This document shows, one piece after another, positions 13,010-37,083 of a stretch of 64,000 bases of DNA (its first letter is position 1; each line of letters opens with the position of its first letter). Location: contig NZ_PDKB01000006.1 of the NCBI RefSeq assembly GCF_003316695.1, forward strand, positions 1 to 64,000, written 5' to 3'. The notes beneath the pieces are model-generated. The model was given only the letters and a program-made list of their open reading frames with translations. It did no database searches and was not told the origin of the DNA. This stretch comes from Aliarcobacter vitoriensis (GTDB taxonomy: Bacteria; Campylobacterota; Campylobacteria; Campylobacterales; Arcobacteraceae). The position numbers were made by a program, and so were the translations under genes.

Positions 13010-13016
13010 TTTTATC

Positions 13017-13739
13017 CTAATATGCTTTTATCCAAAGTAAAGCACCATTTTCAATTGGATATTTTTTACCTTTATACTCTTTTTCACCTTCTTCAATTAG
13101 TGCTGCAAATCCCCACCAACCTTTGTGATTCATAACAAAAGAAAAAACACCATTATCATCAGTCTTTACACTTTGAGTAATATGATTTTCAGTTGGAGCT
13201 TTTAATCCAAATTCATTGTATAACTCAACTTCTACTTGTACATTTGGCATAGCTTTTCCATCTTTTAGAACTTTTCCTTGAAAAATATTTCCAGAATATA
13301 AAGCAAAAGGTTTTGTAAGAGGAACAATTTCATACTCTAAACCAATTGGTTCATACCAACCATCTTCAACTCCAAAGGCACTTACAATTACTTTTGGAAC
13401 ATGACTTATAAATACTTCTTCAGCTTGTTCAAAATATGGTTCTGGTTGTACAAAAAACTGATAAACTCCTGGCTTTTTTATATCAAAATTTGTAGTCCAA
13501 GCTTTCTCTGAAAATTTTTTTATTTCAGTAATATTCAAAGAATTTTTTGTATCATTTACATAAAAACCTTTTGGCTTTTCCATATTCATTCCACTTTGTT
13601 CAAAAGGATGAATAAACATAGTTTCAATTTTTAAATTTGCATCTTTTTTATCAACAATATTATCTGTAGCTGGAATTAATGCTAAAAAATGGGCATTTGC
13701 ATACATTGCAAAACATAGAGCTAATAAGCTTTTCTTCAT
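13017..13739 (-). CDS. nikK: Periplasmic nickel-uptake protein NikK (DUF4198 family)
   Basis: This 240-residue protein has an N-terminal signal peptide ending near Ala-Asn-Ala-His (residues 13-17), then a beta-sandwich DUF4198 domain ending in LLWIKAY. The His after the signal cleavage site and HPFEQSGMNMEKPKG near residue 43-57 are candidate metal ligands. NikK is the extra periplasmic component of NikKMLQO importers, thought to deliver Ni2+ to NikM. It is the first gene of the nik operon: TATAAT lies about 20 bp upstream of its ATG, and the shared 20-bp motif at 13806-13825 lies further upstream. Confidence 0.85.
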   Translation of the reverse strand: MKKSLLALCFAMYANAHFLALIPATDNIVDKKDANLKIETMFIHPFEQSGMNMEKPKGFYVNDTKNSLNITEIKKFSEKAWTTNFDIKKPGVYQFFVQPEPYFEQAEEVFISHVPKVIVSAFGVEDGWYEPIGLEYEIVPLTKPFALYSGNIFQGKVLKDGKAMPNVQVEVELYNEFGLKAPTENHITQSVKTDDNGVFSFVMNHKGWWGFAALIEEGEKEYKGKKYPIENGALLWIKAY

Positions 13740-13805
13740 ATGTATCCTTTTATTTTTTAAAAATTATATCTTCCAATTATTTATGTAAAGTAAATTTTAG
13801 TATTT

Positions 13806-13825
13806 CTTATGTATTTTTAGAACAA
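13806..13825 (+). promoter_or_regulatory. Shared hydrogenase-regulon motif, copy 1 (upstream of nikK)
   Basis: CTTATGTATTTTTAGAACAA matches the motif at 22388-22407 in 19 of 20 positions and that at 37084-37103 (minus strand) in 16 of 20. It lies between hypA and nikK, 67-87 bp upstream of nikK and just upstream of its likely -35/-10 region, where an activator would bind. TTAGAAC here also pairs with GTTCTAA at 13836-13842, giving a 7-bp dyad with a 12-bp gap. Confidence 0.5.
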
Positions 13826-13827
13826 TA

Positions 13828-21505: not shown

Positions 21506-22309
21506 TTATCTCATCTTTCTTTTAAAATTTATCCAATCAACAACTGCCTTTAGCGATTCTTTATCTTTTATAGAAACTTCCAAAATATCAACATTTGGTT
21601 TTAGCTTTCTTGCAACTGCTTTTTCTTTTTCTAAATCATATTCAAAATATGGCAAAAGGTCAGTTTTTGTAAAAAGTATCAAATCTGCACATCTAAACAT
21701 AACTGGATATTTTGCTATTTTATCTTCACCTTCTGGAACTGAAACCAATACAATATTTAAGTGAGTTCCCACATCATAAGAAGCTGGGCAAACTAAATTT
21801 CCTACATTTTCCACAAAACAAACATCAATATCATCTAAAGATAAATCATGTAAACCTTTATGAACCATAAATGCATCAAGATGACAAGCACTTCCTGTTT
21901 GTATTTGAACAGCTGGAATTCCTTTTGCTTTTAGTCTATCTGCATCTTTTGAAGTTTCCAAATCACCTTCAACAACACCAAATTTAAAATCTGCAATTTG
22001 GCTTAAATGCTCTAAAAGTGTAGTTTTTCCACTTCCTGGACTACTCATCAAATTTATTCCTAAAACTTTGTGACTGTCAAAATGTGCTCTATTATGTGCT
22101 GCTTCATGGTCATTTTTATCTAATATTTTTTGAATTACTGAAATTGTTTTTGCATCATTTAATTGTGGATTATGATGAAGTGTTTCATGAGCTGCTTGAT
22201 GTGAATGAGAATGATTTTCGTGATGATGTCCATGCTCATGTGAATGGTCATGTTCGTGATGATGATTATGTTCTTTTCCTGCTATTGTACAACCGCAATC
22301 TTTACACAT
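21506..22309 (-). CDS. hypB: Hydrogenase nickel-insertion GTPase HypB with His-rich tail
   Basis: HypB is the GTPase partner of HypA in nickel insertion. The high-affinity nickel motif CKDCGC sits at residues 2-7. A long His/Glu/Asp-rich stretch (about residues 14-46, with some 15 His) is likely for nickel storage. The GTPase core has SSPGSGKTTLLEHL, the VEGDLETSKDADRL segment, FVENVGNLVCP with a metal-binding Cys, and TKTDLLPYF. It is the first gene of hypBCD and faces a divergent HTH gene across a 115-bp promoter region holding the shared 20-bp motif. Confidence 0.96.
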   Translation of the reverse strand: MCKDCGCTIAGKEHNHHHEHDHSHEHGHHHENHSHSHQAAHETLHHNPQLNDAKTISVIQKILDKNDHEAAHNRAHFDSHKVLGINLMSSPGSGKTTLLEHLSQIADFKFGVVEGDLETSKDADRLKAKGIPAVQIQTGSACHLDAFMVHKGLHDLSLDDIDVCFVENVGNLVCPASYDVGTHLNIVLVSVPEGEDKIAKYPVMFRCADLILFTKTDLLPYFEYDLEKEKAVARKLKPNVDILEVSIKDKESLKAVVDWINFKRKMR

Positions 22310-22387
22310 ATTTTTTTCCTTTTAAACTCTATATTTTTGTGAAGTTTAACCCAAAAAATCTAAATCTTATATAATAACTTTAAAGCA

Positions 22388-22414
22388 CTTATATATTTTT
22401 AGAACAAATTTGTT
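22388..22414 (+). promoter_or_regulatory. Shared hydrogenase-regulon motif, copy 2, with palindrome
   Basis: CTTATATATTTTTAGAACAA (22388-22407) is nearly identical to the copy upstream of nikK and similar to that upstream of hydA2. It runs into a perfect 12-bp palindrome, AACAAATTTGTT (22403-22414). The site lies between divergent hypB (start 22309) and the zinc-ribbon/HTH gene (ATG 22425), ending only 10 bp before the latter. Such a position suits autoregulation of that gene plus control of hypBCD. Confidence 0.5.
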
Positions 22415-22424
22415 AGAATATTGT

Positions 22425-23060
22425 ATGAATTGTCCAAATTGTGAAAATAATAGTTTTTATGTATTAGCTGATGATTACATAAAATGTAAAAAATGTGCAA
22501 AAAAACTATCTCTAAAAAAACTTGAAAAAGATAGATTAATCATAGAAAAATTCTGTGAAGATAAAAATGCACTTCAAACAGCAAAAGAATTGAACTTAAA
22601 CTATAAAACTGTAAAAGATAGATTTGATTTACTTAGAAAAAAAATAGCTATTTATTTAGAAGAAGAGTATCAAAATTCAATAAAAGATTACAGCGAATAT
22701 GAAGAGTTTTACTATATAAAAGAGCGAGAAAAGCATAAAAAAAGAAAATCTCTAAGTGAAGCTATCAATATTATAGGTTTTTACTCAAATGGAAGAGTTT
22801 ATACCTTACTTATGCCAAAAGTTGGAAATCGTGCTTTTGATATAGAAGATGGATTTATTCAATATCTAAATTGGTATAAAATTCATTCACAAAACTCTCA
22901 TCAAACAAAACTAAATGAATTTTGGAAATTTTTAGAATCAAACTTGAGAAAATATAAAGGGGTAAATGAAGATAACTTTTTCTACTATTTAAAAGAGCAA
23001 GAGTTTAAGTTTAACTATATTAAGAGTGAACAACTAGAAACATTAAATAATATTGTTTAA
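22425..23060 (+). CDS. Zinc-ribbon / helix-turn-helix protein, candidate regulator of the hydrogenase cluster
   Basis: The protein starts MNCPNCENN and has a second Cys pair CKKC near residue 22-25, forming a zinc ribbon. A helix-turn-helix-like segment follows (ALQTAKELNLNYKTVKDRFDLL, near 46-67), then an acidic, aromatic-rich domain. The layout recalls IS1/IS1595-type transposase N-termini, and it may be a domesticated relative acting as a DNA-binding regulator. An upstream TTG at 22410 is possible, but it would fall in the operator-like palindrome, so ATG 22425 is preferred. It is the only plus-strand gene in the cluster and overlaps the hypF 3' end by 18 bp. The regulatory role is inferred from position. 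Confidence 0.7.
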   Translation: MNCPNCENNSFYVLADDYIKCKKCAKKLSLKKLEKDRLIIEKFCEDKNALQTAKELNLNYKTVKDRFDLLRKKIAIYLEEEYQNSIKDYSEYEEFYYIKEREKHKKRKSLSEAINIIGFYSNGRVYTLLMPKVGNRAFDIEDGFIQYLNWYKIHSQNSHQTKLNEFWKFLESNLRKYKGVNEDNFFYYLKEQEFKFNYIKSEQLETLNNIV

Positions 23061-25292
23061 ATGATATATCTGTCCAAGACTTATACATTCATCATTTGGA
23101 CTATATTTTTCATTGATATAAAACTCTATATTTTCATCTTCAAATCTTTCTATAATTAACTCCAACAAAGTTTTATTTTGAAAAACTCCACCACTTAACA
23201 CAACAGGTAAAGAGTAAGATTTTGTAATATCAAATATGATATTTACCAAAGTATTTATAAATTTTGAAGCTATTTTTATTTTGTCATTATCAAAAATAAT
23301 CTCTTTTATCATAAGTTTTATATCTATTTCATCTTCTAAAATCTCATAATTGTAAAAATCTTTTATATTTTTATCATAAAGACTTTCAATCAAAAGCCCA
23401 CTTTCTCCTTCATATTCTTGAATATGTAAAATATTTCCTAATGATGCAACTGCATCAAATAATCTTCCAATCGAACTACAAAATGGAGAATTTAAACCTT
23501 TTTTCCACATTGTATATAATACTTTTATATCATTACTATTATACATATTTATTATTGGAATGTCTAAATTTAATACTTCATCTAAAGAATATATTTCAAA
23601 AAGTAAAGATAAAGCAACTCTTTTAGGCTCTTTTATAGCTATTTCTCCACCTAAAAGTTTAAAATATTTTAGATGTTTAACTCTTTCATACTTTTTAGCA
23701 TTTGCTATAAAAAATTCTCCACCCCAAATATTTCCATCATCTCCATATCCAGTTCCATCGAAAGCAATTCCTAAAACATCTTTCGTTAGTGAATATTCAG
23801 CCATTACAGATAAAATATGTGCATAATGATGTTGAATCTGTACAAATTGTATTGATTGATTTTCTTCTTTTAATTTCATAGCATATTTTGTACTTTCATA
23901 ATTTGGATGTTTATCACAAACTATAACTTCAGGTTTAAATTCATAAAAATTCTCAAAATTTTTAATAGTATTTTTATAATTATCTATTGTTAAAATTGAG
24001 TTTAAATCACCTAAATATGGAGAAGTTACAATATTGTTCCCAAAAGCTAAACTAATGGTAGATTTTTGATTTGCTCCTAAAGCTAAGATATTTTTATTGA
24101 AACTTTTTTCAACACTATTTAAAATTGGAGCATATCCTCTTGAAATTCTAAGTTTTACTAATCTATTTCCAATAATTTGAACAATAGAATCATCACAACT
24201 ATTTACAATATCTCTATTATAATCTAACACAAAATCCACCAAACCATAAAGTTTTAAAAAAATTTCTTCTTTATTTGTCATAATAGGCTCATTTTTTAAA
24301 TTTGCACTTGTTGCAATAATGGGATTTTTTAAGTTTTTAAAAATTAAATATTGCAATCCTGTATTTGGTAAGAAGCAACCTATTTTATCTATATTTGGAG
24401 CTATAAATTGTGATAAATTTGTATTCTTTTTTTTTCTTAAAAGAACGATTGGTTTTTCTTTAGAAGTTAAAATCTTTTCTTCTTTAAAATCTATGTTTGT
24501 ATATTGTTTAATACTATTTATATTATTAAACATAACTGCAAAAGGTTTTGTTGGTCTATTTTTAATAACCCTTAATTTACTAACAACTTTATCATTCGTT
24601 GCATCACAAACTATATGAAATCCACCCATACCTTTTAATGCAATAATATATCCTTGTTTAATTAAACTAGCTGTTTGCTCTATGGCTTTAAAATTGCATT
24701 CTAATATATCACTATTTATATTATACAAAGCCATATTTGGACCACATTCTTCACAAGCAATAGGCTCTGCATGATATCTTCTATTTAAAGGATTTTTATA
24801 TTCATCTTCACATTTTTTACATAATTTAAACTTACTCATAGAAGTATTAACTCTATCATAAGGAATTGTTTTGATGATTGAATATCTAGGACCACAATTT
24901 GTACAGTTTGTTAAACTATAACTATATCTAAAGTTATCAATATTATCTATATCCTTGATACAATCATCACAAATTGCTATATCAGGAGAGATAATAGTAG
25001 TTTTATTTTTTGAACTTGAACTTTGAATAATTTCAAAGTTTTTGTATTCTTTTATTTTGTTATTTTTTTCTATTTTTATATTAGTGATTTTTGCTAAAAC
25101 TGGAGGATTTGATTTGATTTCATTTATAAAATTTTCTATATTTTTTTGTGTAGAATAGACATCTATTTCTACTCCATTTTCATCATTTTTAACCCAACCT
25201 TTTATATCATATTTGATAGCTAGATTGTAAATAAATGGACGAAAACCAACACCTTGAACAACTCCAAAAATAGATATTTTCTTGTTTATCAT
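23043..25292 (-). CDS. hypF: Carbamoyltransferase HypF
   Basis: HypF makes the carbamoyl group that becomes the CN ligands of the [NiFe] site. Domains in order are acylphosphatase (GVVQGVGFRPFIYN, residues 10-23), two HypF zinc fingers (CDDC-x18-CTNC and CKKC...CEEC), a YrdC-like domain (ALKGMGGFHIVCDA and RPTKPFAVM), and a Kae1-like domain with QHHYAHILSVMAEY and SGGVFQN. At about 749 residues it is full length. ATG 25292 is preferred over GTG 25295. It lies 30 bp downstream of hydE1 in transcription order. Confidence 0.97.
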   Translation of the reverse strand: MINKKISIFGVVQGVGFRPFIYNLAIKYDIKGWVKNDENGVEIDVYSTQKNIENFINEIKSNPPVLAKITNIKIEKNNKIKEYKNFEIIQSSSSKNKTTIISPDIAICDDCIKDIDNIDNFRYSYSLTNCTNCGPRYSIIKTIPYDRVNTSMSKFKLCKKCEDEYKNPLNRRYHAEPIACEECGPNMALYNINSDILECNFKAIEQTASLIKQGYIIALKGMGGFHIVCDATNDKVVSKLRVIKNRPTKPFAVMFNNINSIKQYTNIDFKEEKILTSKEKPIVLLRKKKNTNLSQFIAPNIDKIGCFLPNTGLQYLIFKNLKNPIIATSANLKNEPIMTNKEEIFLKLYGLVDFVLDYNRDIVNSCDDSIVQIIGNRLVKLRISRGYAPILNSVEKSFNKNILALGANQKSTISLAFGNNIVTSPYLGDLNSILTIDNYKNTIKNFENFYEFKPEVIVCDKHPNYESTKYAMKLKEENQSIQFVQIQHHYAHILSVMAEYSLTKDVLGIAFDGTGYGDDGNIWGGEFFIANAKKYERVKHLKYFKLLGGEIAIKEPKRVALSLLFEIYSLDEVLNLDIPIINMYNSNDIKVLYTMWKKGLNSPFCSSIGRLFDAVASLGNILHIQEYEGESGLLIESLYDKNIKDFYNYEILEDEIDIKLMIKEIIFDNDKIKIASKFINTLVNIIFDITKSYSLPVVLSGGVFQNKTLLELIIERFEDENIEFYINEKYSPNDECISLGQIYHLNNII

Positions 25293-25325
25293 CACTCTTC
25301 TTTTTATATAAGTTTAAAACTATAC

Positions 25326-26945
25326 CTATTTTTGAATGACAAACTCTTTATTGTAGTAGATTTTGAAGTTTTTTGTTATACTTTTTTCAACAAGTTGATT
25401 AAATCTGATATTTGCAAACATATCACCACATAAACTAATACCATCGAGATCATAACTATTATGTAAAATATCAACTTCATTGGCTATAAAGTGTGCAAAA
25501 CTCTCGATAAATCCTAAGCTAATAGTTTCTTCATCAACACCTGCAAGTTTAAAACTCATGGCTGTTTTTATAAGTGGTAAATAGTCAAATTTTCTATTAA
25601 ATACTTTTTTACTATCAAAGATTTTATAGTCAATTCTAGGTCCTTTTTCAAGTAATGAATTTGTAGCATTTACGACTACATCTTCTTCAAAATTTAGCAC
25701 TATTTTTGCTATTTGCCAATATGTAAAGAATGATTTTTTTGAAAAATCTATCTTTGTGTTTAATACTTTTTCATAATCATTTTTAAACTTTTCTTCATAG
25801 TTTTTTAGAAGTTTTTGTCCTTTTATATCTTTTTTTATACTTTCAAAAACTTCATTTATTGAAGCTGGAATATATAAATCTTCTAAAATATCAACTAATC
25901 CATTTTGTGAGTAATAAGAGATTTTATCATCATTTAAAAAGCTAATATAAAAGTTCATAATAGACTTCTCAAATAATTCATTTTCAGCTAAAACAGTCAT
26001 GAATTGGGCTTTATCTTTTTCTTTAAACTTACTAAAAACAGTATCTAGCTTTTTTGGATAAGAAATCGAGTTTAAAATGAGTTTTTTATTATCAAAACAT
26101 ACTATTTTAGGAATATCCAAAAAGATATTATTACTATTTTTTACATCTAAAAAATAGTTAGATTTAGCACTTTTATCTTCAATATTTAAAAAATCAATAT
26201 TTAATTTTTTGAGTTCTAAGCATAGTAGATATAAAGTCAAATCATTTGCAAATCGCAAATCTATTTTCTCTTTTTTGATACTATGTTTTAGTTTATATAT
26301 CTCATTTATTTTAAACTCAATTTGTGGCTTTTCTATACTTGCAAGTGCTACAATAGAAGTTGCATTTTCTACAATCAAAGTATTGATATTTTCTAAATTT
26401 GTAACCAATAACTCTTTATGATTTTCTATATCTTTAACTTTTGAAAAGACAAAAGTTCCACTTAAAGTTTTTATTTTGATTTTTTTATCTTCATTTATTA
26501 GTTGGCTTAACTTCTCAAAAAGTTTTTTATGTGATTTTATCTCTTCATTTTCAAAAATAAAAGTTGCATTCTCAAAACTTTTACAAACTTCACAAGATTT
26601 AAAAGCATTATAATAATCCAAACTTTTTTCATCTTCAACTTCTTTTAGGCAAGTTGGACAAAAAGATATGATTTTATCATCATAAACAGTAGTTGAATCC
26701 TCTTTTGGTAAATTTTCAACTACTTCAACTTCAATACCATAATAAAAAATTGATATAGGAATATATAAAGATAAAGTTGAAGAAAACTCTTCTAAAATCT
26801 GTTCATTTGCTTGCATATATAAACAAATAAAATCAAGTTCTTGATATATTTTATAGCTACAATCGAACTTCTTTGAAGCAAAATCCAAAAACTTTACTAA
26901 AGTTTTATCACTTGATTTATAGGTAAATTTAAACTTTAGGACCAT
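25326..26945 (-). CDS. hydE: HydE, HypF-like hydrogenase accessory protein, copy 1
   Basis: This 539-residue protein follows the protease gene in the Wolinella/Helicobacter hydABCDE order. It looks like a degenerate HypF: a zinc finger C-x2-C-x18-C-x2-C at Cys96, Cys99, Cys118 and Cys121 has exactly the HypF spacing, and near the C-terminus GVDEETISLGFIESFAHFIANEV and ISLCGDMFANIRFNQL echo the HypF Kae1-like end. The Kae1 HxxxH motif is not visible, so transferase activity is doubtful. HydE is known in epsilonproteobacteria as needed for hydrogenase maturation. It overlaps hydD1 by 17 bp. Confidence 0.8.
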   Translation of the reverse strand: MVLKFKFTYKSSDKTLVKFLDFASKKFDCSYKIYQELDFICLYMQANEQILEEFSSTLSLYIPISIFYYGIEVEVVENLPKEDSTTVYDDKIISFCPTCLKEVEDEKSLDYYNAFKSCEVCKSFENATFIFENEEIKSHKKLFEKLSQLINEDKKIKIKTLSGTFVFSKVKDIENHKELLVTNLENINTLIVENATSIVALASIEKPQIEFKINEIYKLKHSIKKEKIDLRFANDLTLYLLCLELKKLNIDFLNIEDKSAKSNYFLDVKNSNNIFLDIPKIVCFDNKKLILNSISYPKKLDTVFSKFKEKDKAQFMTVLAENELFEKSIMNFYISFLNDDKISYYSQNGLVDILEDLYIPASINEVFESIKKDIKGQKLLKNYEEKFKNDYEKVLNTKIDFSKKSFFTYWQIAKIVLNFEEDVVVNATNSLLEKGPRIDYKIFDSKKVFNRKFDYLPLIKTAMSFKLAGVDEETISLGFIESFAHFIANEVDILHNSYDLDGISLCGDMFANIRFNQLVEKSITKNFKIYYNKEFVIQK

Positions 26946-27489
26946 TTATAATATCTCTTTTAAAAGAAACCAAAGCTATGTTTCTTATATCAACTTCTTT
27001 TATTTGTTTTACTGTAACTTCAAGTTTTAAAAGATGGTCAATTATGACTTTTTCCATAGTTTTTGAAGCTTGTATAATTTCACTGCTTAACTCAAAAGTA
27101 GTATCATCTGTAACTCTTTTAGGAATTACTCCTAAAATATGCGTTGTAGGTAAATCTTTATTCATATCAATCATATTTAATGTTTGAAGCATCTCAACTT
27201 CGTGAGCACTTCCTTGCCAGTTTATATTTGAAGGAACTTTTTTAAAATCAAAGAAAAAAACATCTCCAGCTTTTGAATTTATTGCATCAATACAATCAAT
27301 AATCAAAACTTCATCATACTTTACAATTTCCGGAATCAATCTTTGAGCTAAAGTTCCACCATCAACTAAACTTACACTATTTTTTTGCGATATAAACTCA
27401 TACTTTTCATCTAAATAGTGAATAAAATGTGCACCAATCCCTTCATCTTGAAATAGGATATTTCCTATTCCTAAAATCAAGATATTCAT
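26929..27489 (-). CDS. hydD: Hydrogenase maturation protease HydD, copy 1
   Basis: HydD clips the C-terminal peptide of the large subunit after nickel insertion. This 186-residue protein starts ILGIGNILFQDEGIGAHF. The conserved metal-binding acidic residues are in FQDEG (near 14-18) and IIDCIDA (near 63-69), and a His is near HEVE (about 95), as in HyaD/HupD. It directly follows hydC1 and overlaps hydE1 by 17 bp. Its likely substrate is HydB1, where cleavage would follow the His of DPCIACAVH. Confidence 0.92.
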   Translation of the reverse strand: MNILILGIGNILFQDEGIGAHFIHYLDEKYEFISQKNSVSLVDGGTLAQRLIPEIVKYDEVLIIDCIDAINSKAGDVFFFDFKKVPSNINWQGSAHEVEMLQTLNMIDMNKDLPTTHILGVIPKRVTDDTTFELSSEIIQASKTMEKVIIDHLLKLEVTVKQIKEVDIRNIALVSFKRDIINGPKV

Positions 27490-28154
27490 TATTTATGGTC
27501 TTCCCATTTATATCCAGAGATAATAGAGTCCATATCCCCTTTTTTTCCATAAACAGAGTTGAAAACAACCAAATAAATATGAATAGGCAAAAATATTATA
27601 AAAATCCACATACAAATATGATGAATTTCTCTAACCATAGCTAATCCACCCATTAAAACCTCTATGGGTCTTAGAACATCGTATAAAAACCCACCTAATC
27701 CTTCATGGTAAACATGAATATGTAAAATCAATCCAGTCAAAGAAATAAGTATCAAAGATATATAAATTCCAGAATATGCCATAAATTGTAGTGGATTATA
27801 AACACCTTTTATATGAGTATGTTCACCTATTAAAATATAATACTTTATCTGTTTTATCCACATTTTTGGTGAAATAAAATCAAAAAAAGATATTCTTTCT
27901 TTTTTACTTTCTCTATCAAAAAAGAATAAATACATTTTTCCAATAGTTACACAAATCAATAAAAATCCAAAAATAATATGCCAACTTCTCATCAAAGCAT
28001 TTAAAAAGTTTGTTGGTTCACCTCCATTTAAAGAAGGAGATATAAATGGATATGCTAAATAAAATCCAGTAAAAGTCAAAACTGTTATAGCAAGCATTCT
28101 AAGCCAGTGAGTAATCCTTAGCCATAAAGAGTATTCATAATGTTTTTTTATCAT
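27489..28154 (-). CDS. hydC: Hydrogenase cytochrome b subunit HydC, copy 1
   Basis: This 221-residue integral membrane protein has four hydrophobic segments and heme-ligand histidines in SLWLRITHWLRML (near 9-21), SWHIIFGFLL (near 53) and the C-terminal HHICMWIFIIFLPIHIYLVV. It carries electrons from the HydA iron-sulfur chain to the menaquinone pool and anchors the periplasm-facing dimer. It lies 17 bp downstream of hydB1 and touches the hydD1 start. Confidence 0.93.
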   Translation of the reverse strand: MIKKHYEYSLWLRITHWLRMLAITVLTFTGFYLAYPFISPSLNGGEPTNFLNALMRSWHIIFGFLLICVTIGKMYLFFFDRESKKERISFFDFISPKMWIKQIKYYILIGEHTHIKGVYNPLQFMAYSGIYISLILISLTGLILHIHVYHEGLGGFLYDVLRPIEVLMGGLAMVREIHHICMWIFIIFLPIHIYLVVFNSVYGKKGDMDSIISGYKWEDHK

Positions 28155-28171
28155 ATTTGCTCCAATTTATA

Positions 28172-29902
28172 TTAGCAAGAAAAACCATATAATGGATCTA
28201 CTTTGTATGTTCCTAAGTCATTACCTTTTTTATCCATAACATGAACTGCACAAGCAATACAAGGGTCAAAACTGTGTATTATTCTGATAATTTCAAGAGG
28301 TTGAGAAATATCTTGAACTTTTAAACCAACTAAATTTGCTTCATAAGGTCCCATTTGTCCTTTTGCATCTATTGGTCCAGCATTCCAAGTTGAAGGAACA
28401 ACGGCTTGATAATTTTCAACAACTCCATTTTTTATTCTAATCCAGTGAGACAACATTCCTCTTGGAACATCACCTATAAATCTTCCTCTATATTCTTTAT
28501 CTTTATCTATTTTATAAGAAGTAAAAGTTATCTCATCTACTTTTAGGTTTTCAATTAGAGTATGAAAGGCTTCTAAACCATATTTAGCAACTGCTTTTAC
28601 TTGTAACATTCTAGCTGCTGTTCTTCCTAAAGTAGTAAATAAAGCACTTTTTGGTAAACCAGTTTTTTGTAAAAACTCATCTACAATTGGAACTATTTTT
28701 TTATTTCCTTTTGCATAAGATATCAAAATACAAGCCAATGGTCCAACTTCAATAGCTTTTCCATCATATCTTGGAGATTTAATCCAAGTATATTTTCCTT
28801 TTTCATCTATAACTTTAGAATGAACTTTTTCTCCATCCATTCCAATTGTATCCATATCTCTTAATCCTGTATATTTAGGGTTTGTTTTACCTTCATATGG
28901 ATGAAGTGCTTCATTATTTTCATACCAAGAGTGAGTTGCTTCTTCTGTTATTAAATCTTCATTTATATCGAATACTTTAGATAAATCTCCATCAAAAATA
29001 ATCCCAGAATCAAATAAAAACTCTGTTTTATTCAATCTCATCTCTTCATGTGCCATAAAGTTCATAACTCCAGCTGGTCTAGTTACAGATAACTCATCTT
29101 TAAATACACCAGCAGCCATTATAATATCCGCTTGATAAGCATTTTCTATAAACTCTGCCCCAACTTTAAATAAAGTTAGATATTCTCCCATTCTTGAAGG
29201 ATCTAATAAATCCATAATACATGTAACTCCACCAACAGTTAAACTTTGTGGATGTGGTTGTTTTCCACCAAAAATAGCCATAAGTTTTGCTAAATCTCTT
29301 TGAACTTCTAAAGCTTTTAAATAGTGACTTAATAAAATCAAGTTTTGCTCAGGAGATAATCTATAAGTTTTATGTCCCCAATAAGCATTTGCAAATGGTC
29401 CTAATTGTCCTTTTTCTACAAACTCTTTAACTCTTGTTTTTACTTTTTTTAAGTCATTTTCTCCAGTTGCTATTGGAAAGTCTGAGTATTTAAAAGCTTC
29501 TTTTGAAGCTTTTTGCTCATCTGCATCAAGTGCTGCAACAACATCAACCCAATCAAGTCCATGTAGATGATAAAAATGTACAATATGGTCATGCATAAAT
29601 AAAGCCATATTCATCAAACTTCTTGTAAGTTTTGCATTTATAGGAGGAATTATTCCTAAAGCATCTTCAACAGCTTCAATCCCTGCTCTATAATGAGAAA
29701 ATGTACAAACTCCGCAAATTCTTTGCATCAAAAAACCTGCATCTCTTGGGTCTCTATTTTTTACTATTGTTTCTAAACCTCTCCATAAAGTTGATGATGA
29801 ATATGCTTTTTGAATCACATTATTTTCATCAACTTCAACTTCTATTCGCAAATGTCCTTCTATTCTTGTAATTGGGTCTATTATAACTCTTTTATTTGAC
29901 AT
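28172..29902 (-). CDS. hydB: [NiFe] hydrogenase large subunit HydB, copy 1
   Basis: The active-site cysteines are in RICGVC (N-terminal L1 motif) and DPCIACAVH (C-terminal L2 motif). The peptide after the final His (VMDKKGN... ending YGFSC) would be removed by HydD. The protein starts IDPITRIEGHLRIE. The frame extends upstream to 29965, but ATG 29902, one base after the hydA1 stop and 10 nt from AAGGA, gives the standard start (MSNKRVIIDP). It is full length at about 576 residues. With HydA1 and HydC1 it forms a membrane-bound, H2-oxidising enzyme. Confidence 0.97.
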   Translation of the reverse strand: MSNKRVIIDPITRIEGHLRIEVEVDENNVIQKAYSSSTLWRGLETIVKNRDPRDAGFLMQRICGVCTFSHYRAGIEAVEDALGIIPPINAKLTRSLMNMALFMHDHIVHFYHLHGLDWVDVVAALDADEQKASKEAFKYSDFPIATGENDLKKVKTRVKEFVEKGQLGPFANAYWGHKTYRLSPEQNLILLSHYLKALEVQRDLAKLMAIFGGKQPHPQSLTVGGVTCIMDLLDPSRMGEYLTLFKVGAEFIENAYQADIIMAAGVFKDELSVTRPAGVMNFMAHEEMRLNKTEFLFDSGIIFDGDLSKVFDINEDLITEEATHSWYENNEALHPYEGKTNPKYTGLRDMDTIGMDGEKVHSKVIDEKGKYTWIKSPRYDGKAIEVGPLACILISYAKGNKKIVPIVDEFLQKTGLPKSALFTTLGRTAARMLQVKAVAKYGLEAFHTLIENLKVDEITFTSYKIDKDKEYRGRFIGDVPRGMLSHWIRIKNGVVENYQAVVPSTWNAGPIDAKGQMGPYEANLVGLKVQDISQPLEIIRIIHSFDPCIACAVHVMDKKGNDLGTYKVDPLYGFSC

Positions 29903-29903
29903 T

Positions 29904-31070
29904 TTATTCATTTCCTTGCGAATCTTTTGGGTTTTTAAATCTTGAAATAGCAGCATGTGCAGCAATACCTATTCCAGTTAGAGTTAGTAATCCAACTCCT
30001 ATTTTATCAGCTGTTGCATCAGCACCTAAACCTTTAAATACTGTATTATACAGTCTATTTGCAACTGGTTCTTCAAAAGGTCCCATAGTATCCCAAAAGT
30101 TTGGTTCACTGCAACCAATACACCCATGTCCTGCTTGAATAGGCCAAGAAGTATGAGAATTGAACTTATTTTTTGAACAGTTATTAAAAGTATATGGTCC
30201 TTTACAACCTACTTTATATAAACAGTATCCTTTTTTTGCACCTTCATCTCCAAACTCTTCTACAAACTCACCAGCGTCAAAATGCCCTCTTCTTTCACAT
30301 AAATCGTGAATTCTCAATCCATAAGCCCATTTTGGTCTATTGTAAGCATCAAGAGACGGTAAAGTTCCATAAAGTATATAATGAAGTAAAGTTCCAACTA
30401 TATTTTTTTCACTTGGAGGACAGCCTGGAACATTTATTACTAATTTATCTGTAACATTTGATAAAGCTTTTGCACCAGTTGGATTTGGAATAGCTGCTTG
30501 AACTCCACCAAAAGATGAACAAGTTCCTATTGCAAATATTGCTAAAGCATTGTTTGAAGCATCAATTGCTGATTGTTCTCCTGTTTTTCCATGCCCACCA
30601 ATAGTTAAGAAAGTAGCATTTTCTCCTGTTGGAATCCCACCTTCAACCATTAAAATATATCTTCCTTTATATTTTTCAATAGCTGATTCAAGATTGTGTT
30701 CAGCTTGCCATCCAGCTGCTGCCATCAAAGTTTCATGATACTCTAAAGATATATAATCGAAAATTAATGAATCAATAGTTGGAGCATCCGTTCTAAGTAA
30801 TGATTCACTACATCCTGTACATTCAGCCATATGAAGCCAAATAATAGGTAGTCTATCACTTAAAGAGGCTGCTTTTGCAACTAAAGGAGTAAAAGTTGCA
30901 GGAAGTGCTAACATAGCAGTCATTGCTGTAGCCCATTTCATAAAATCTCTTCTTGAGATACCTTTTTCTTCCAAATGAGAATCTATAGATTTTTCTTCTT
31001 TAAATCTTGGTAGTTTTTCTAAATCTAATAATCTATTAGATAATTTTTCATAGAGTTTTTTATTTTTCAA
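29904..31070 (-). CDS. hydA: [NiFe] hydrogenase small subunit HydA, copy 1
   Basis: A Tat signal (SRRDFMKW at residues 39-46 plus a hydrophobic stretch) directs export of the folded heterodimer. Proximal-cluster ligands are canonical: Cys84 and Cys87 in ECTGCSES, then GTCSSFGG and PGCPPSE. The distal and medial motifs CERRGHFD, CLYKVGCKGP, FNNC and GCIGCSEP follow, and a C-terminal membrane anchor lies near 352-375. It starts with TTG at 31070 behind AAGG; no ATG is available before the Tat motif. A 72-bp spacer separates it from hydE2. Confidence 0.96.
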   Translation of the reverse strand: MKNKKLYEKLSNRLLDLEKLPRFKEEKSIDSHLEEKGISRRDFMKWATAMTAMLALPATFTPLVAKAASLSDRLPIIWLHMAECTGCSESLLRTDAPTIDSLIFDYISLEYHETLMAAAGWQAEHNLESAIEKYKGRYILMVEGGIPTGENATFLTIGGHGKTGEQSAIDASNNALAIFAIGTCSSFGGVQAAIPNPTGAKALSNVTDKLVINVPGCPPSEKNIVGTLLHYILYGTLPSLDAYNRPKWAYGLRIHDLCERRGHFDAGEFVEEFGDEGAKKGYCLYKVGCKGPYTFNNCSKNKFNSHTSWPIQAGHGCIGCSEPNFWDTMGPFEEPVANRLYNTVFKGLGADATADKIGVGLLTLTGIGIAAHAAISRFKNPKDSQGNE

Positions 31071-31090
31071 GTGCGACCTTTTTAAATAAT

Positions 31091-31111
31091 ATATGGTTTA
31101 TTCTACCATAT
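31091..31111. promoter_or_regulatory. Inverted repeat between hydE2 and hydA1
   Basis: ATATGGT and ACCATAT form 7-bp perfect arms around a 7-nt loop in the 72-bp gap between the two hydrogenase operons. It ends 21 bp upstream of the hydA1 start. It could be a weak attenuator for the upstream operon or an operator for hydA1. On the minus strand TATAAG lies at about 31120-31115. Confidence 0.45.
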
Positions 31112-31142
31112 TTATCTTATATACTCTCTTGTTTATGGATTT

Positions 31143-32642
31143 CTAATAATCTAAAGGATACTCTTTTGGTAAAATTAGATTGTGATTTTTACTTAACTCT
31201 TTTAAAACTTTATTTAAAATTAATCTGTTTGCAAAAATATCTCCACAAAGAACTATATCTTTTGCTTTTATTTGTCTTGCTATCTCTTTTGAATATTCGA
31301 CAATAAATTCTCCTAAAAATTCATAAAATGAGTAAGCTAATGTTTCATTATCAACATCAGCCATTTTATATGACATTATTGATTGAATAATTTTTCTATA
31401 ATCTAAATAATTTTTATCTTCAACTTTATTAATTTTCATATCAATTTGAACACCATTAGAATAGCTACTACTTAATGCCAACTCTTCAAATTCGAGAATA
31501 TTATTTAAACCTAAAACTTTTGCACAAATTTCGATGATAGAACCAAATGAATTCAAGTTTGATAATTTTTGATTTAAAATATCAGGGTATTTTTTTATAA
31601 AATTATCTATCAATCTTTTAGAATTTTCATCAATAGATGAAATATCTTTAAAAACTTTATCAATACAATTGTCTATTTCTGGAACATATATAACTCTTTT
31701 TTCTTTTCCATTTGAAGTGTTTATATCTACAAAACTATTTTTTGAGCTTTGTGAAAAATATACTCCAATAGTTGAAATATTCTCTTTTGATTCATAAGAA
31801 ATAATTGACTTATATATATTTGGGAAAGAGTTAAAATACTCTTTTTTTGTATTAAAAACTTTTTTTAAAGCAAAATCATATTTAGGAAAAAGTATTTTTT
31901 CGTCACTTATAACAATATTTTTATCATTATTATTTATAGCTTTTAACTCTTTTTCATCACTTGTATATAAAATATAATCTATATTTTGTTTAGATAAAGC
32001 TTGCGAGAGAAGTAACATATCTTTATTATTTGGTAATCTTGTATAAATATATTTTGAATTTGAAATATTTAAGTATTCATCTTGAAGCTTTAATCTTACA
32101 AGAGGTCTTTCAATAGAACATAACAAAGCTAAATCAGAGTCATCGATTTTTACAATATTACTTATTTTATTACTATTACAAATTAAAAGTTTAATCTCTT
32201 CATTATTTATTTTCAATTCTTCTAAAATTTCTTTATTTGGTAAAAATATTTTTATATTTTTATATTCAACAACTTCATTTTTAGATAATTTTATTATATT
32301 ATCTAAAAAATCAAAGTAATTATCTTCTAAAATTTCATTTATTTTTTTTAGTGTTAAAATCTCGAAATTTGGTTTGATATTAAAATCCTTTATCTCTTCC
32401 AAATTTTCATCAAAATTATCAATAACATAAGATTTTGATATAAACATAGAAATAGGAAGGTTTTTTTCTAAAGTAGTAAAGAATTCTTCTATTTTCTCAC
32501 TACTATCTTCAAAAATTATAAGAATAAATCCAAAATATTGTTTTGTGAATGCTTTTATATTATCTTCAACTATTAATTCATCAATTAATTTTTTAAAATA
32601 TAAAGCTGTTGAATTAAATTCAATTTTATAGATTAATTTCAT
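31143..32642 (-). CDS. hydE: HydE paralogue, copy 2, lacking the zinc finger
   Basis: This protein of about 499 residues follows hydD2 just as copy 1 follows hydD1. The C-terminal region aligns by eye with copy 1 (YKMADVDNETLAYSFYEFLGEFIVE and IVLCGDIFANRLILNKVL versus its FKLAGVDEETISLGFIESF and ISLCGDMFANIRFNQL). The C-x2-C-x18-C-x2-C zinc finger of copy 1 is absent; the matching region (about residues 80-110) has no cysteine. ATG 32642 gives a 17-bp overlap with hydD2, exactly as in copy 1, so it is preferred to the upstream ATG at 32660. The N-terminal half is rich in Asn, Lys and Ile and poorly conserved. Confidence 0.75.
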   Translation of the reverse strand: MKLIYKIEFNSTALYFKKLIDELIVEDNIKAFTKQYFGFILIIFEDSSEKIEEFFTTLEKNLPISMFISKSYVIDNFDENLEEIKDFNIKPNFEILTLKKINEILEDNYFDFLDNIIKLSKNEVVEYKNIKIFLPNKEILEELKINNEEIKLLICNSNKISNIVKIDDSDLALLCSIERPLVRLKLQDEYLNISNSKYIYTRLPNNKDMLLLSQALSKQNIDYILYTSDEKELKAINNNDKNIVISDEKILFPKYDFALKKVFNTKKEYFNSFPNIYKSIISYESKENISTIGVYFSQSSKNSFVDINTSNGKEKRVIYVPEIDNCIDKVFKDISSIDENSKRLIDNFIKKYPDILNQKLSNLNSFGSIIEICAKVLGLNNILEFEELALSSSYSNGVQIDMKINKVEDKNYLDYRKIIQSIMSYKMADVDNETLAYSFYEFLGEFIVEYSKEIARQIKAKDIVLCGDIFANRLILNKVLKELSKNHNLILPKEYPLDY

Positions 32643-33213
32643 GAGTAAAATCCTCTTCATTTGGAATTCTACTTAAATGTGTACCATTGTAGCTTCCTAT
32701 CATACTTTTTACTATATCACTAACACTTATCTCATCTTTTTTTGAATATGAAAAACCTAAATCTTCAATTTCTTTCAATGCAGTTTTTATAAAAAGAGGA
32801 AAAAATTCTTCCATTTTTTGAGTAAGACCTATTTCTACGCTCTGTATATCTTGAGGAACTATACCTATGATTGTTACATTTGCATGAGAATCTAATACAG
32901 AAACTATCTCTAACATTTCAATAATTTCTACTTCATGAGCAGTTTTTCTATATTTTCCAAGTCCTAATAAAACATCACTGGGAAGTTTAAAAATAGATCC
33001 AACTTCATCTTCAATAGATACAGTATCTAAGATAATGACATTATCATAATCTTGAAAATATGCCATTAGCTTAAATCCTAATGTTCCACCATCAATTATC
33101 TCTAAATCACTACTAATATTATAGTTTTGCTTTATATATTCACTTGCATAAATACCTATACCCTCATCTTTAAAGAGCATATTACCAACACCAATTACAA
33201 TAGATTTTTTCAT
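32626..33213 (-). CDS. hydD: Hydrogenase maturation protease HydD, copy 2
   Basis: The protein starts KKSIVIGVGNMLFKDEGIGIYA. The acidic metal ligands in KDEG and the IILDTV stretch are as in HyaD-type peptidases, with a His in KTAHEVEIIEML. ATG 33213 is chosen over TTG 33231 because it matches the start of copy 1. It is 195 residues with a short C-terminal extension relative to copy 1. Its expected substrate is HydB2 (cut after DPCIACAVH). It follows hydC2 by 33 bp. Confidence 0.9.
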   Translation of the reverse strand: MKKSIVIGVGNMLFKDEGIGIYASEYIKQNYNISSDLEIIDGGTLGFKLMAYFQDYDNVIILDTVSIEDEVGSIFKLPSDVLLGLGKYRKTAHEVEIIEMLEIVSVLDSHANVTIIGIVPQDIQSVEIGLTQKMEEFFPLFIKTALKEIEDLGFSYSKKDEISVSDIVKSMIGSYNGTHLSRIPNEEDFTHEINL

Positions 33214-33246
33214 ATAAAGTTTAAGAGTCAAGCTTTCGCTTAACTC

Positions 33247-33948
33247 TTATTTCTCCTCTTCTTTTACAAATTTGCTTCCACCAAAAACAATAGCAATATC
33301 ACCTTCTTTCCAGAATATTGTTCTCCAAACTTGATAGTAAATATGAAACATAACCCATACTAAAATAAAATACATAGTATAATGATGAGCTATTCTAACT
33401 CCCATATTTCCACCAAAAACATATAAAGTCCAATCCGTAACTAAGTGAAGCATTGCTGGCCACCAAGTACCAATAGAACTCTCTCCAGAAGCTAATCCAT
33501 GAACATATAATTGAAGTCCTGTAAACAACATAAACCCTAACAATAGATGGAATATTGTAAAAAATACAATATTAAAGCTATCACTATGGGCTGAATTAAA
33601 TTTTTTTCTTCTATTTAATGTTATTAAATTTAAAAATACCTCAAAAAATTCAACAAGATTTGTTTTTGTTGGAATTAGCTTTTTATATGGTTTTTCAAAC
33701 CTAGAAAAAAAGTATAAATATCCAACTAAAACAGCTGTTACATCAAAGATAATAGCAACTATAAAGTGTGCCCATCTATTCCAAGCCATTACATATTTAT
33801 CTACAGCTGGGTCAGCTATAAATGTTTGATAATATGGATGTCCAATATACAGTCCAGTAACTACTGCAATTATCATACTAAAGAATGTTACCCAATGCAC
33901 TATTCTCATAGTTTTAGTCATTCTTTTTACTTCTATATTTTTTGCCAT
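33247..33948 (-). CDS. hydC: Hydrogenase cytochrome b subunit HydC, copy 2
   Basis: This 233-residue membrane protein has four segments. Heme-ligand candidates are in MRIVHWVTFFSM (near 14-25), WNRWAHFIVAIIFD (near 54-67), FTIFHLLLGFM (near 133) and MGVRIAHHYTMYFILVWVMFHIYYQVW near the end. It passes electrons from HydA2 to menaquinone. It lies 10 bp downstream of hydB2. It is clearly diverged from copy 1, so the duplication is not recent. Confidence 0.93.
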   Translation of the reverse strand: MAKNIEVKRMTKTMRIVHWVTFFSMIIAVVTGLYIGHPYYQTFIADPAVDKYVMAWNRWAHFIVAIIFDVTAVLVGYLYFFSRFEKPYKKLIPTKTNLVEFFEVFLNLITLNRRKKFNSAHSDSFNIVFFTIFHLLLGFMLFTGLQLYVHGLASGESSIGTWWPAMLHLVTDWTLYVFGGNMGVRIAHHYTMYFILVWVMFHIYYQVWRTIFWKEGDIAIVFGGSKFVKEEEK

Positions 33949-33958
33949 AAGTTACTCC

Positions 33959-35683
33959 TTAAATTGGATTTACTTTATATACACCAAGTTCTTTACCATT
34001 TGTATCTATGATATGAACAGCACAAGCAATACACGGATCAAAACTATGAATAGTTCTTAAAATTTCTAAAGGTTGATCTGGATTTGCTACCTTTGTACCA
34101 ATCAATGATGATTCATAAGCACCTAATCTTCCCTTATAATCCCTAGGAGCTGCATTCCACGTTGAGGGAACAACCGCTTGATAATTTTCTACTTTTCCAT
34201 CTTTTATTTTTACCCAATGTCCTAATGCACCTCTAGGAGCCTCTTCAAGCCCTATTCCTTTTGCATCTTTTGCAACATTATTAAAATCAAACTCTGTCCA
34301 AGTTGATAAATCTCCATGTGCAACATTTAAAGCTAACTCATCTACCCATTCCATCATAATATCAGCCATAAGCTCGCTTTCTATTGCACGTGCTGCTGTT
34401 CTTCCAACTGTTGAAAATAATACATTTGCAGGAAGATTTGCATTTGTTAAAAAATTTGTAACATATTTTTTGATTCTTTCATCATTACTTGCATATCCTA
34501 CAATCATTCTAGCAAGAGGACCAACTTCCATTCTCTCATCGTCATAAAGAGGTGATTTAATCCAAGAATATTTATTTTTTGTATCTAAATATGCAATATT
34601 ATCTTCTTTCTTACCAAAACCTGTATAATTTGGCTTAGTAACTCCATCATATGGATGTAAATTTGTATTACCTTCATACCAAGCATGAGTTACATCTTCT
34701 GTTATTTTAGTTTCATCTACTTCAAAAACTTTAGTTAAATCTCTATTTTTTACAATTCCTGATGGAAAAAGTTTTGAAGAGTTATAAAATGGTAAATCAT
34801 CTAATCTAAACCCACCATAAGACATATAGTTTCCTACACCTCCACCAATTCCTTCTAAAGCTTCATCAGCATACATAGTTCCAGCCATATAAACATCACT
34901 TAAATATGCTTCCTTTGTAAATTTCTGACCTCTTTTTAAAATTTGTTTAAATTCTGCAATTCTTGCAGGATTTTTAATATCTTGAACACATGTAACTCCA
35001 CCAACAACAAAAGATTGTGGGTGTGGGTTTTTACCACCAAAAATAGCCATCATTTTTGCTAAATCTCTTTGTAATTCAAGTGCATCAAGATAATGAGAAA
35101 GTCCAATTAAGTTTTGTTCAGGAGTAAGTTTAAACCCTTTTGAACCCCAGTAAGCATTTCCAAAAATCCCTAGTCTTCCTTGTTTTACATATTTTGTAAC
35201 CCTTTCTTGAACTTGAGCATATACATCTTCATTTGCATTCCATGGTCTTTGCCCTGATATTTTTGCCCACTTTTGAGCTTCAACAACAGTTGCCTTAGGA
35301 TCAGCTTTAAGTGCTTCTGTTATATCAACCCAATCAAGTGCATGTAAATGGTAAAAATGAACAATATGATCATGAAGGTATAAAGCACCTTGTATAAGGT
35401 TTCTAACTAACCTTGCATTTTTTGGAATAGTTACATTAAAAGCATGTTCAACTGCTTCAATACTTCTTTGATAATGTGTTCCTGTACAAACTCCACAAAT
35501 CCTCATAGCTAAAAGTCCACAATCTCTTGGATCTCTTCCTTTTAGTATTTCTTCAATTCCTCTAAACATTGTTGAAGAAGAATAAGCATCTGTTACAACA
35601 TTGTTTTCATCTATAATTGCTTCAATTCTAAGATGTCCTTCAATTCTTGTAATTGGATCAATTACTAAATGTTTTTTTGCCAT
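33959..35683 (-). CDS. hydB: [NiFe] hydrogenase large subunit HydB, copy 2
   Basis: This 574-residue protein has active-site motifs RICGVCTGTH and DPCIACAVH. The cleavable C-terminal peptide is shorter than in copy 1 and ends VNPI. It starts MAKKHLVIDPITRIEGHLRIE, with the stop of hydA2 overlapping the start. Sequence similarity to copy 1 is high around the active site but the proteins are distinct throughout. It would form a second membrane-bound enzyme with HydA2 and HydC2. Confidence 0.97.
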   Translation of the reverse strand: MAKKHLVIDPITRIEGHLRIEAIIDENNVVTDAYSSSTMFRGIEEILKGRDPRDCGLLAMRICGVCTGTHYQRSIEAVEHAFNVTIPKNARLVRNLIQGALYLHDHIVHFYHLHALDWVDITEALKADPKATVVEAQKWAKISGQRPWNANEDVYAQVQERVTKYVKQGRLGIFGNAYWGSKGFKLTPEQNLIGLSHYLDALELQRDLAKMMAIFGGKNPHPQSFVVGGVTCVQDIKNPARIAEFKQILKRGQKFTKEAYLSDVYMAGTMYADEALEGIGGGVGNYMSYGGFRLDDLPFYNSSKLFPSGIVKNRDLTKVFEVDETKITEDVTHAWYEGNTNLHPYDGVTKPNYTGFGKKEDNIAYLDTKNKYSWIKSPLYDDERMEVGPLARMIVGYASNDERIKKYVTNFLTNANLPANVLFSTVGRTAARAIESELMADIMMEWVDELALNVAHGDLSTWTEFDFNNVAKDAKGIGLEEAPRGALGHWVKIKDGKVENYQAVVPSTWNAAPRDYKGRLGAYESSLIGTKVANPDQPLEILRTIHSFDPCIACAVHIIDTNGKELGVYKVNPI

Positions 35684-36918
35684 TATTTTTCTTCTCCTTC
35701 ATTTGATTTTTTACCAGCAATGATACTTGCAACAGCATGAACTCCAATACCAACAGCAGTTGCTGTTAATAATCCTAGTCCAAATTCATCAACAGTTTTT
35801 TCAACTCCACCTGTTGGAGCTTTTATTCGTGCAGTTGCCATTGGTCTTTCATAAGCATATTTATCCCAAAAATCTGGCTCACTACACCCAATACAGCCTC
35901 TACCAACACCAATAGGCCAATTGATACCATCATTATATCTTATGATTGAGCAGTTATTAAATGTCATAGGTCCTTTACAACCGACTTTATATAGACACCA
36001 ATTGTTTTTAGCCCCTTCATCTCCCCACTCTTCAACAAACTCGCCAGCATCAAAATGAGCTCTTCTTTCACAGTTATCATGAATTCTATAACCAAATGCA
36101 AACTTAGGTCGTAAAAGTGAATCAAGTTCTGGAATTTGTCCAGTTAAAACATAATGTAAGATTACTCCAACCATATTTGCTGGATTTGCAGGACAAGCTG
36201 GAATATTTACTATTGGTTTTCCTTTTACTAAATCCATAACACCAACAGCACCTGTTGGATTAGGAGCAGCAGCTGGAACTCCACCAAAGGTAGCACATGT
36301 ACCAACAGCAACAATAGCTGCTGCATCTTTTGATATTCTCATTAGATGTTCATGGAAAGTTTCTCCCATAGCACCAATCGTACCATATTGACCATTCATA
36401 GCCATAGGAATTGAACCTTCTACAAAAAGTAAATATTTACCTTTAAAGTGTTCAACTGCTTCTTCAAGTTGTTTATCAGCATCATGTCCAGCAGCTGCTT
36501 GCAATGCTTCATGAAATTCCAAACTTAAAACATCAAACAGCAAATCATCAACTGTTGGAGCGGAACTTCTTAAAAGTGCTTCAGAATTTCCAGCACAGTC
36601 TTGTAACTCTAGCCAAATAACAGGTACTCTATTCATAAGCTCAGTAGCTTCTGCTACAAGTGGAGCAAACATAGGAGGAAGCATAAGAGTAGCAGTTGTT
36701 GCACTCACCCACTTCATAAAATCCCTTCTATTTATTCCTTCACTCTCTATAATATCTAGCATATCAATATTTTTAAGTGGTGTTTCTTCTCTTAAAGCTT
36801 TTAATCTATTTTTTGATTTTTCAAATAATAAGTTATAATACTCATCACCTTTATTTGTATTTACTCTCGTTGATTTTTGAGTAAATACTTCCCTTACTCT
36901 ATCCATTGAATCAGTCAT
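35683..36918 (-). CDS. hydA: [NiFe] hydrogenase small subunit HydA, copy 2, with altered proximal-cluster motif
   Basis: This 411-residue protein has a Tat signal (NRRDFMKW at 63-70) and a C-terminal membrane anchor near 379-400. The proximal motif reads DCAGNSEA: Cys108 is kept but the second cysteine is Asn111 (codon AAT, 36586-36588). The other two proximal ligands are present (GTCATFGG and PACPAN), as are the distal and medial motifs (CERRAHFD, CLYKVGCKGP, FNNC, GCIGCSEP). Changing Cys to Asn needs two base changes, so a single read error is unlikely. A strong GGAGG precedes the ATG. The gene heads the whole minus-strand supercluster. Confidence 0.95.
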   Translation of the reverse strand: MTDSMDRVREVFTQKSTRVNTNKGDEYYNLLFEKSKNRLKALREETPLKNIDMLDIIESEGINRRDFMKWVSATTATLMLPPMFAPLVAEATELMNRVPVIWLELQDCAGNSEALLRSSAPTVDDLLFDVLSLEFHEALQAAAGHDADKQLEEAVEHFKGKYLLFVEGSIPMAMNGQYGTIGAMGETFHEHLMRISKDAAAIVAVGTCATFGGVPAAAPNPTGAVGVMDLVKGKPIVNIPACPANPANMVGVILHYVLTGQIPELDSLLRPKFAFGYRIHDNCERRAHFDAGEFVEEWGDEGAKNNWCLYKVGCKGPMTFNNCSIIRYNDGINWPIGVGRGCIGCSEPDFWDKYAYERPMATARIKAPTGGVEKTVDEFGLGLLTATAVGIGVHAVASIIAGKKSNEGEEK

Positions 36919-37083
36919 ATCTGTTCCTCCTACAAATAAATATCTGTATCTAAAAGATAATCCTTTAATACTTATACAATACTTAATGTTTTTTTTGGAA
37001 AAGAGTGAAAATTTAATATATTAAAGATTTTTTAATTTTTGGTAAAAAAATATTTCCGATTTTATCGAATATGAATATTTATC

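Follow-up and report, generated by a model that had tools for sequence, protein, structure and literature searches.

The nickel-import and hydrogenase genes of Aliarcobacter vitoriensis share a 20-bp motif in three intergenic regions, which raises the question of whether this motif is a genuine operator and, if so, which protein would bind it and with what effect on transcription. We addressed this question in a 64,000-nucleotide stretch of contig NZ_PDKB01000006.1 (hereafter the window), in the whole genome of this organism, in its relatives, and in a larger set of loci and genomes from the phylum.

Three copies of the motif in the window

The initial annotation had listed the three 20-mers with their coordinates and strands and had reported that copies 1 and 2 agree in 19 of 20 bases and copies 3 and 2 in 17 of 20. 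All of these statements were found to be correct when checked against the sequence (Table 1). Each of the nik, hyp, and hyd units is preceded by one copy, and copy 2 is also located before the divergent gene at 22425. Some gene names in these units were given by similarity and position, and the hydA2...hypF run is probably one long transcription unit, judging from gene order.

Table 1. Putative operator copies, genes, and predicted promoter hexamers in the window.
Feature	Position	Strand	Description
Putative operator copy 1	13806..13825	+	CTTATGTATTTTTAGAACAA; precedes nikK (- strand), 67 bp to nikK start; exact match
Putative operator copy 2	22388..22407	+	CTTATATATTTTTAGAACAA; between hypB (-) and regulator gene (+); exact match; arrangement kept in relatives
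Putative operator copy 3	37084..37103	-	CTTATATAAAATTAGAACAA; 166 bp before hydA2, on the gene's own strand; exact match
nikK	13017..13739	-	leads nickel importer nikKMLQO (10640-13739); DUF4198 3.3e-47; adjoining nikM CbiM-type; CbiQ and ABC ATPase
Predicted nikK -10 hexamer TATAAT	13763..13768	-	37 bp from operator
hypB	21506..22309	-	leads hypB-C-D...E-A unit (13828-22309); TIGR00073 1.2e-82; HypA found
Predicted hypB -10 hexamer TAAACT	22343..22348	-	39 bp from operator
Candidate regulator gene, 211 aa	22425..23060	+	CxxC..CxxC zinc ribbon, helix-turn-helix, putative IS1595-type transposase remnant
Predicted regulator-gene -10 hexamer TAGAAT	22414..22419	+	6 bp from operator
hydA2-B2-C2...hydA1-B1-C1...hypF	23043..36918	-	two [NiFe] hydrogenases and maturation genes
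Predicted hydA2 -10 hexamer TAAAAT	37059..37064	-	19 bp from operator

When the whole 2.43-Mb genome was scanned with the 20-mer pattern, only the three copies were recovered as exact matches; allowing a single mismatch added 1 place, and allowing two added 11 more. Thus, the long motif does not match random places equally often. At up to three mismatches, 6 pattern matches were found in the window versus 2.87 expected, a number that was reached by 4 of 100 shuffles, so the window taken alone is weak evidence. At the same threshold, no clear excess was observed in the genome (74+66 matches to the pattern versus 53+67 to the reversed pattern). Only the long motif is therefore informative, which bears out the earlier remark that the long version matters and that its core recurs by chance.

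Several additional features were observed in and around these units. At 13826-13860, in the 3' end of hypA, an imperfect second copy of the motif (CTTATGAGTTTAGAACTA) was seen by eye on the other strand; it faces the nikK operator, so that copy 1 resembles a loose dyad. Candidate defence genes are located at 1055-6243, beside the nik locus (NsnA, 8e-122; NsnB, 2.8e-95; NsnC, 2.1e-41; and a DndC-like gene, 5.6e-78), and a phage-type integrase is encoded at 9377-10465. The region 16422-20099 of the hyp unit, lying between hypD and a MazG-like gene, contains a Bro-N/PDC-S13 gene and a McrBC-type restriction pair (AAA_5 at 17255-18955; McrBC at 18948-20099, 7e-56). Beside the hydrogenase operons, the genes at 25326-26945 and 31143-32660 have weak HypF_C_2-like C-terminal ends (5.6e-4, which is below the cut-off, and 7.7e-12, respectively).

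Conservation of the motif in relatives and across the phylum

In relatives, the motif takes the form CTTATRTANTTTTRGRACNA. Within the stretches compared around their regulator genes, it is found at set places before nikK, hypB, and hydA as well as before the regulator gene itself. The 23 nikK sites (20 distinct) are 67-84 bp from the gene and always on the opposite strand. The 46 hypB sites (39 distinct) are also on the opposite strand, at 71-122 bp except for four at 193-230 bp, and the sites of the regulator gene are on the strand of the gene at 2-43 bp, with two exceptions at 86 and 103 bp; all of these distances run to the first aligned residue, which shifts a few of them by some codons. 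Same-strand copies before hydA2 lie at 157-205 bp in 9 regions and at 143-174 bp in 7 more. The strand of the hydA sites differs from lineage to lineage, with 9 on the strand of the gene and 4 on the opposite one, which counts against the explanation favoured below.

The site is also kept when its target operons have been relocated, before nikK in G018, G027, G008, G006, and G014, and before hydA in 7 genomes (G004, G008, G014, G017, G022, G026, and G030). In G004, G010, and G011, hypB and the regulator gene are separated and each has a site of its own; in G014 and G018, the sole site around the regulator gene is that of hypB. Moreover, the regulator gene has moved beside nikK in G028 and is present as a second copy in G032, and the site accompanies it.

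A scan of the phylum using the family alignment, short peptide patterns, and named genomes resulted in 72 regulator loci, with nothing certain for other phyla. All sequence titles that name a group point to Campylobacterota; three others read just "bacterium", and one carries the label Helicobacter pylori PMSS1. The contig with this last label (L205) has the regulator beside hypB at 41% identity, and the label appears doubtful for a metagenome bin. The flanks of the 72 loci contain hyp genes in 66 cases, nik genes in 2 more, and neither in 4.

A first matrix was constructed from 35 site lines of relatives after removal of duplicates, nearly all of them from the genus and three from outside it. 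At 12 bits or more, it detected 77 sites in the 72 loci, and the reversed control gave 21. A regulon gene is present no more than 260 bp away from 65 of these sites, and the other 12 are away from any regulon gene. Only 51 of the 72 loci have a site scoring 12 bits or more in the 260 bp that precede the regulator gene, on its strand, and several loci (such as L170, L174, L177, and L187) have no site near this gene. When the training genomes were set aside, the remaining 60 loci gave 46 sites scoring 15 bits or more, 40 of which are at expected promoters and 6 elsewhere, versus 2 in the reversed-sequence control; this result settles the observation as real. Shared ancestry inflates every one of these counts. 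A second matrix was built from the finds of the first, and its near-invariant columns (C1, T3, T7, G15, A17, and C18) are therefore in part a product of selection. In L245 and L246, which belong to a genus that also has NikR, the best site in each 20-kb locus (14.0 and 17.0 bits, respectively) is located between the regulator gene and hypB. With the phylum pattern at up to one mismatch in 150 genomes, 47 sites were obtained in the 39 genomes carrying the regulator (control 16) and 50 in the 111 others (control 33), which implies that many sites are background at this threshold.

The motif is thus kept in relatives and across much of the phylum, and together with the non-random distribution of its long form in the genome, this supports the proposal of the initial annotation that it is a regulon operator. 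We conclude that the 20-mer is very likely a real operator of a nickel-import/[NiFe]-hydrogenase regulon. A chance resemblance in AT-rich DNA, to which the mildly unusual window count and the lack of a clear genome excess at three mismatches might point, appears extremely improbable given that place, strand, and spacing are conserved over many genera.

Two further types of sites were noted in relatives. Those recurrent one-mismatch sites that were inspected fall within long reading frames (L228, L229, L230, L239, and L247). An intergenic site in G009 (L148:9833-9852, CTTATATATGTTTAGAACGA) has an identical 20-mer in G024 and is distant from any known target.

Nickel importers next to the site

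For the 73 sites that score 14 bits or more, the opposite-strand neighbours were sorted by short sequence signatures, resulting in 41 importers, 19 hypB, 2 hydA, and 2 unsorted genes, with none found in 9 cases. The importers comprise a 213-aa NicO-like family (22), NikM/CbiM (8), HupE/UreJ (6), nikK (3), and HoxN/NixA-type NiCoT (2). Ten representatives were compared with Pfam, which gave matches to HupE_UreJ (1.1e-37 and 3.5e-38), NicO (5.4e-89, a 341-aa protein), CbiM (8.5e-61), DUF4198 (twice), and Peripla_BP_2 (twice). For the 213-aa family, the NicO match was weak (1.7e-4, below the cut-off, for L183) and L150 matched no Pfam family, so the naming of this family rests on the HAFGPDHL signature, which we take to be a mark of NicO-like identity. 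A periplasmic binding protein to which no substrate was assigned is the divergent neighbour of a site in both G031 and G089. As judged from these neighbours, the site keeps roughly one distance and one relative strand before non-homologous importer families.

Urease is apparently no target. In the 15 family genomes that have a second, UreG-like match to the HypB model (E below 1e-20; presumably UreG), no site with up to one mismatch was seen by eye within 80 kb on the same contig.

Promoter geometry and the predicted mode of action

We also examined the distance between the motif and a -10-like hexamer, defined as TAnnnT with at least 4 of 6 matches to TATAAT. Such a hexamer lies 35-39 bp from the motif in 63 of 63 distinct promoters (20/20 for nikK, 4/4 for nikM, and 39/39 for hypB). 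In the named-genome set, it begins 36-40 bp beyond the motif in 58 of 62 distinct target promoters, the four misses being 2 HupE and 2 hydA promoters; the counts for other 5-bp windows are 56 (start 34), 29 (start 38), and 3-29 (remaining even-numbered windows). At opposite-strand hydA promoters, the hexamer is at 49 bp in 3 of 4 cases, that is, 11 bp or one helix turn further, and at same-strand hydA2 promoters it is found at 15-19 bp in only 4 of 9. The promoter of the regulator gene itself has the hexamer at 5-8 bp in 44 of 64 distinct cases and at 15-19 bp in 10 of 64. Sequence comparison shows an operator with defined target genes and orientation and a fixed distance to a -10-like hexamer.

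The TTTTRGRAC stretch of the motif, which we take to be similar to the TTGGAAC-type -24 box, might suggest a sigma-54 promoter element in place of an operator. We rejected this candidate: GG-N10-GC occurs in none of 121 distinct site contexts, GC is present within 1 bp of the -12 place in 9 of 121, and sigma-70-like -10 hexamers are present, which leaves a sigma-54 element hardly conceivable.

With these spacings, most targets would have the operator centred near -60, and at the regulator promoter it would lie over the -35/spacer region. A position near -60 is usual for an activator that contacts the RNA polymerase alpha subunit, and CRP at -61.5 in E. coli is an example of such a class I activator promoter. 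The importer and hypB promoters share with this class an upstream site near -60 at a constant distance from the -10 hexamer; the candidate regulator, however, has no homology to CRP, and its role as an activator is predicted. Given this position, the bound protein would most likely activate transcription of the importers and hypB, and given the location of the operator over the -35/spacer region of its own promoter, it would most likely repress its own gene. Overall, the regulator is predicted, at somewhat better than even confidence, to act as an activator.

The same protein could in principle repress the importer, hyp, and hyd genes, for instance when it is nickel-loaded, as NikR often does. 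Its targets are what would be expected for a nickel regulator, its own gene has the site over the core promoter, and NikR represses nikABCDE in E. coli (PMC2667541). However, at importers and hypB the site precedes the -35 region and keeps a constant distance of 36-40 bp to the -10 hexamer, and since a steric repressor needs no such spacing, we consider repression of these genes rather unlikely.

Origin of the candidate regulator

The candidate regulator encoded at 22425-23060 consists of a CxxC...CxxC motif, a helix-turn-helix (HTH), and a C-terminal part. No Pfam family was matched at 0.001, and its matches to NF033547 (IS1595 transposase; 5.2e-6, 26.5 bits versus a cut-off of 75) and PF12760 (18.5 versus a cut-off of 25.4) are below threshold. 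The similarity to NF033547 is nonetheless clear, since 15 of 16 members of the regulator family reach E 0.1, the best of them 2.9e-9. In a comparison of profiles, a genuine 224-aa IS1595 transposase was aligned over 179 columns (98.4%), and the zinc ribbon and HTH could be aligned to another transposase over 77 columns (81.9%).

Catalytic residues were compared with those of four transposases in an alignment of 54 sequences, which contains the window protein and 53 of the 72 loci (L160, L195, and L200 were omitted because of internal stops, and L190 was end-trimmed). The first position is D in 30 rows and E in 24, the second Asp is missing in all 54, the third position is N in 26, and the following K is replaced in all 54. 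The three omitted loci are metagenome-derived, and their regulator frames (L160:10001-10627, L195:10001-10639, and L200:10001-10648) represent either broken genes or assembly errors.

An AF2 model of the protein (pLDDT 83.8, pTM 0.78) gave a weak structural match to the ISCth4 transposase (Z 7.1, 171 residues, rmsd 6.1), followed at about Z 5-6 by integrase cores and HTH domains, whose similarity may reflect no more than a common arrangement. Foldseek returned no match at E<=0.001, and no relative was found by sequence among solved structures at E up to 1.

The regulator is best described as a descendant of an IS1595-type transposase whose catalytic site has been lost. Its zinc ribbon, HTH, and C-terminal LKECEFRFN-type sequence are homologous to those of IS1595-family transposases; in contrast to them, it has neither the second Asp nor the Lys, stays beside hypB, and scores below the family cut-offs. 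In a terminal-repeat comparison, only imperfect AT-rich repeats were found to flank the regulator gene, and true IS1595-type elements of the phylum have clear repeats in L224 and L241-L244 and none clear in L222 and L223. The possibility that the operator is a fossil terminal repeat of the ancestral insertion sequence was rejected, because the ends of five IS1595-type elements (L224, L241-L244) show no convincing likeness to the motif.

Co-distribution of the regulator, HypB, and NikR

Among 60 relatives, the regulator was detected in 39, HypB above the cut-off in 49, and both in 38; a 40th weak match to the regulator, in G038, is a true transposase. In 36 of 39 genomes with the regulator, its gene and hypB are divergent and no more than 10 kb apart. 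In the 150 phylum genomes, 51 match the regulator, of which 39 (E 1.9e-24 or better) were counted as carriers and 12 weaker ones were taken as transposases or pieces (4 of them inspected). NikR is present in 57 of these genomes, and both proteins co-occur in 4 (G055, G153, G167, and G187, all of one genus). Fisher tests on such co-distribution disregard kinship. The two genes are immediate neighbours in G055, G167, and G187 and about 5 kb apart in G153. The NikR C-terminal domain (PF08753) has no match in the genome of A. vitoriensis itself, and NikR was found in none of 37 family genomes, some of them incomplete, and in 7 of the 60 relatives, one of which also has the regulator. In G040, G042, G046, G056, and G059, HypB is present and neither the regulator nor NikR was found.

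It is likely that the operator is bound by this linked, transposase-derived protein, the candidate binder of the initial annotation, as suggested by its linkage, its apparent autoregulatory site, its DNA-binding domain, and its co-distribution. Another, unlinked protein might bind instead, with the gene at 22425 being merely a target of a real regulon. Binding by the 22425 protein is something that we infer; G008 has the site without any regulator gene found (its hypB runs to the contig edge), and a strong site before the regulator gene is absent in 21 of 72 loci. On the other hand, this gene encodes a zinc ribbon and HTH, is kept beside hypB in 36 of 39 genomes, and moved together with the site in G028 and, as a second copy, in G032. 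An unlinked binder is therefore regarded as quite improbable.

Discussion

The explanation that we favour, and hold to be probable, is that a transposase-derived activator controls the nickel-import and [NiFe]-hydrogenase genes and represses its own gene. The 22425-23060 protein would bind the 20-mer before the nik, hyp, and hyd units. The signal, at a guess, would be the nickel need of hydrogenase assembly, either as low nickel or as the maturation state. A point against this explanation is that a study of Sulfurospirillum multivorans found constitutive expression of its main hydrogenase (PMC5357620). A search of titles and abstracts in the open literature, with preprints and most subscription papers outside its scope, revealed no paper describing this regulator or site.

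In these lineages, the regulator would do the work of NikR. Both regulons have nickel importers and [NiFe]-hydrogenase genes as targets and show apparent autoregulation, and the comparison of genomes places operators before both types of genes, as in a NikR regulon. However, the two proteins are unrelated, the site of the regulator is an asymmetric 20-bp sequence, and urease is seemingly not one of its targets.

Mobile-element proteins have become transcription factors elsewhere, and nuclease-dead relatives of TnpB are transposon-protein-derived regulators of this kind. Plant FHY3/FAR1 are a further example (PMC13306707). Unlike those, the candidate described here would be a relative of DDE-type IS1595 transposases in bacteria that is tied to nickel and hydrogenase genes. 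With regard to its history, we lean slightly towards a scenario in which an IS1595-type transposase was tamed early in Campylobacterota and came to serve as master activator both for nickel import and for the assembly of [NiFe] hydrogenases. Kept divergent from hypB, it would have retained one 20-bp site that captures each acquired importer, and it would fill the place that NikR holds in other families, with both being present in one genus.

This study provides a candidate regulator, its DNA site, a list of targets, and a promoter geometry, which are directly testable. If true, it would also clearly exemplify, in bacteria, how a DDE-type transposase can become a regulator whose operator accompanies nickel importers of non-homologous families.
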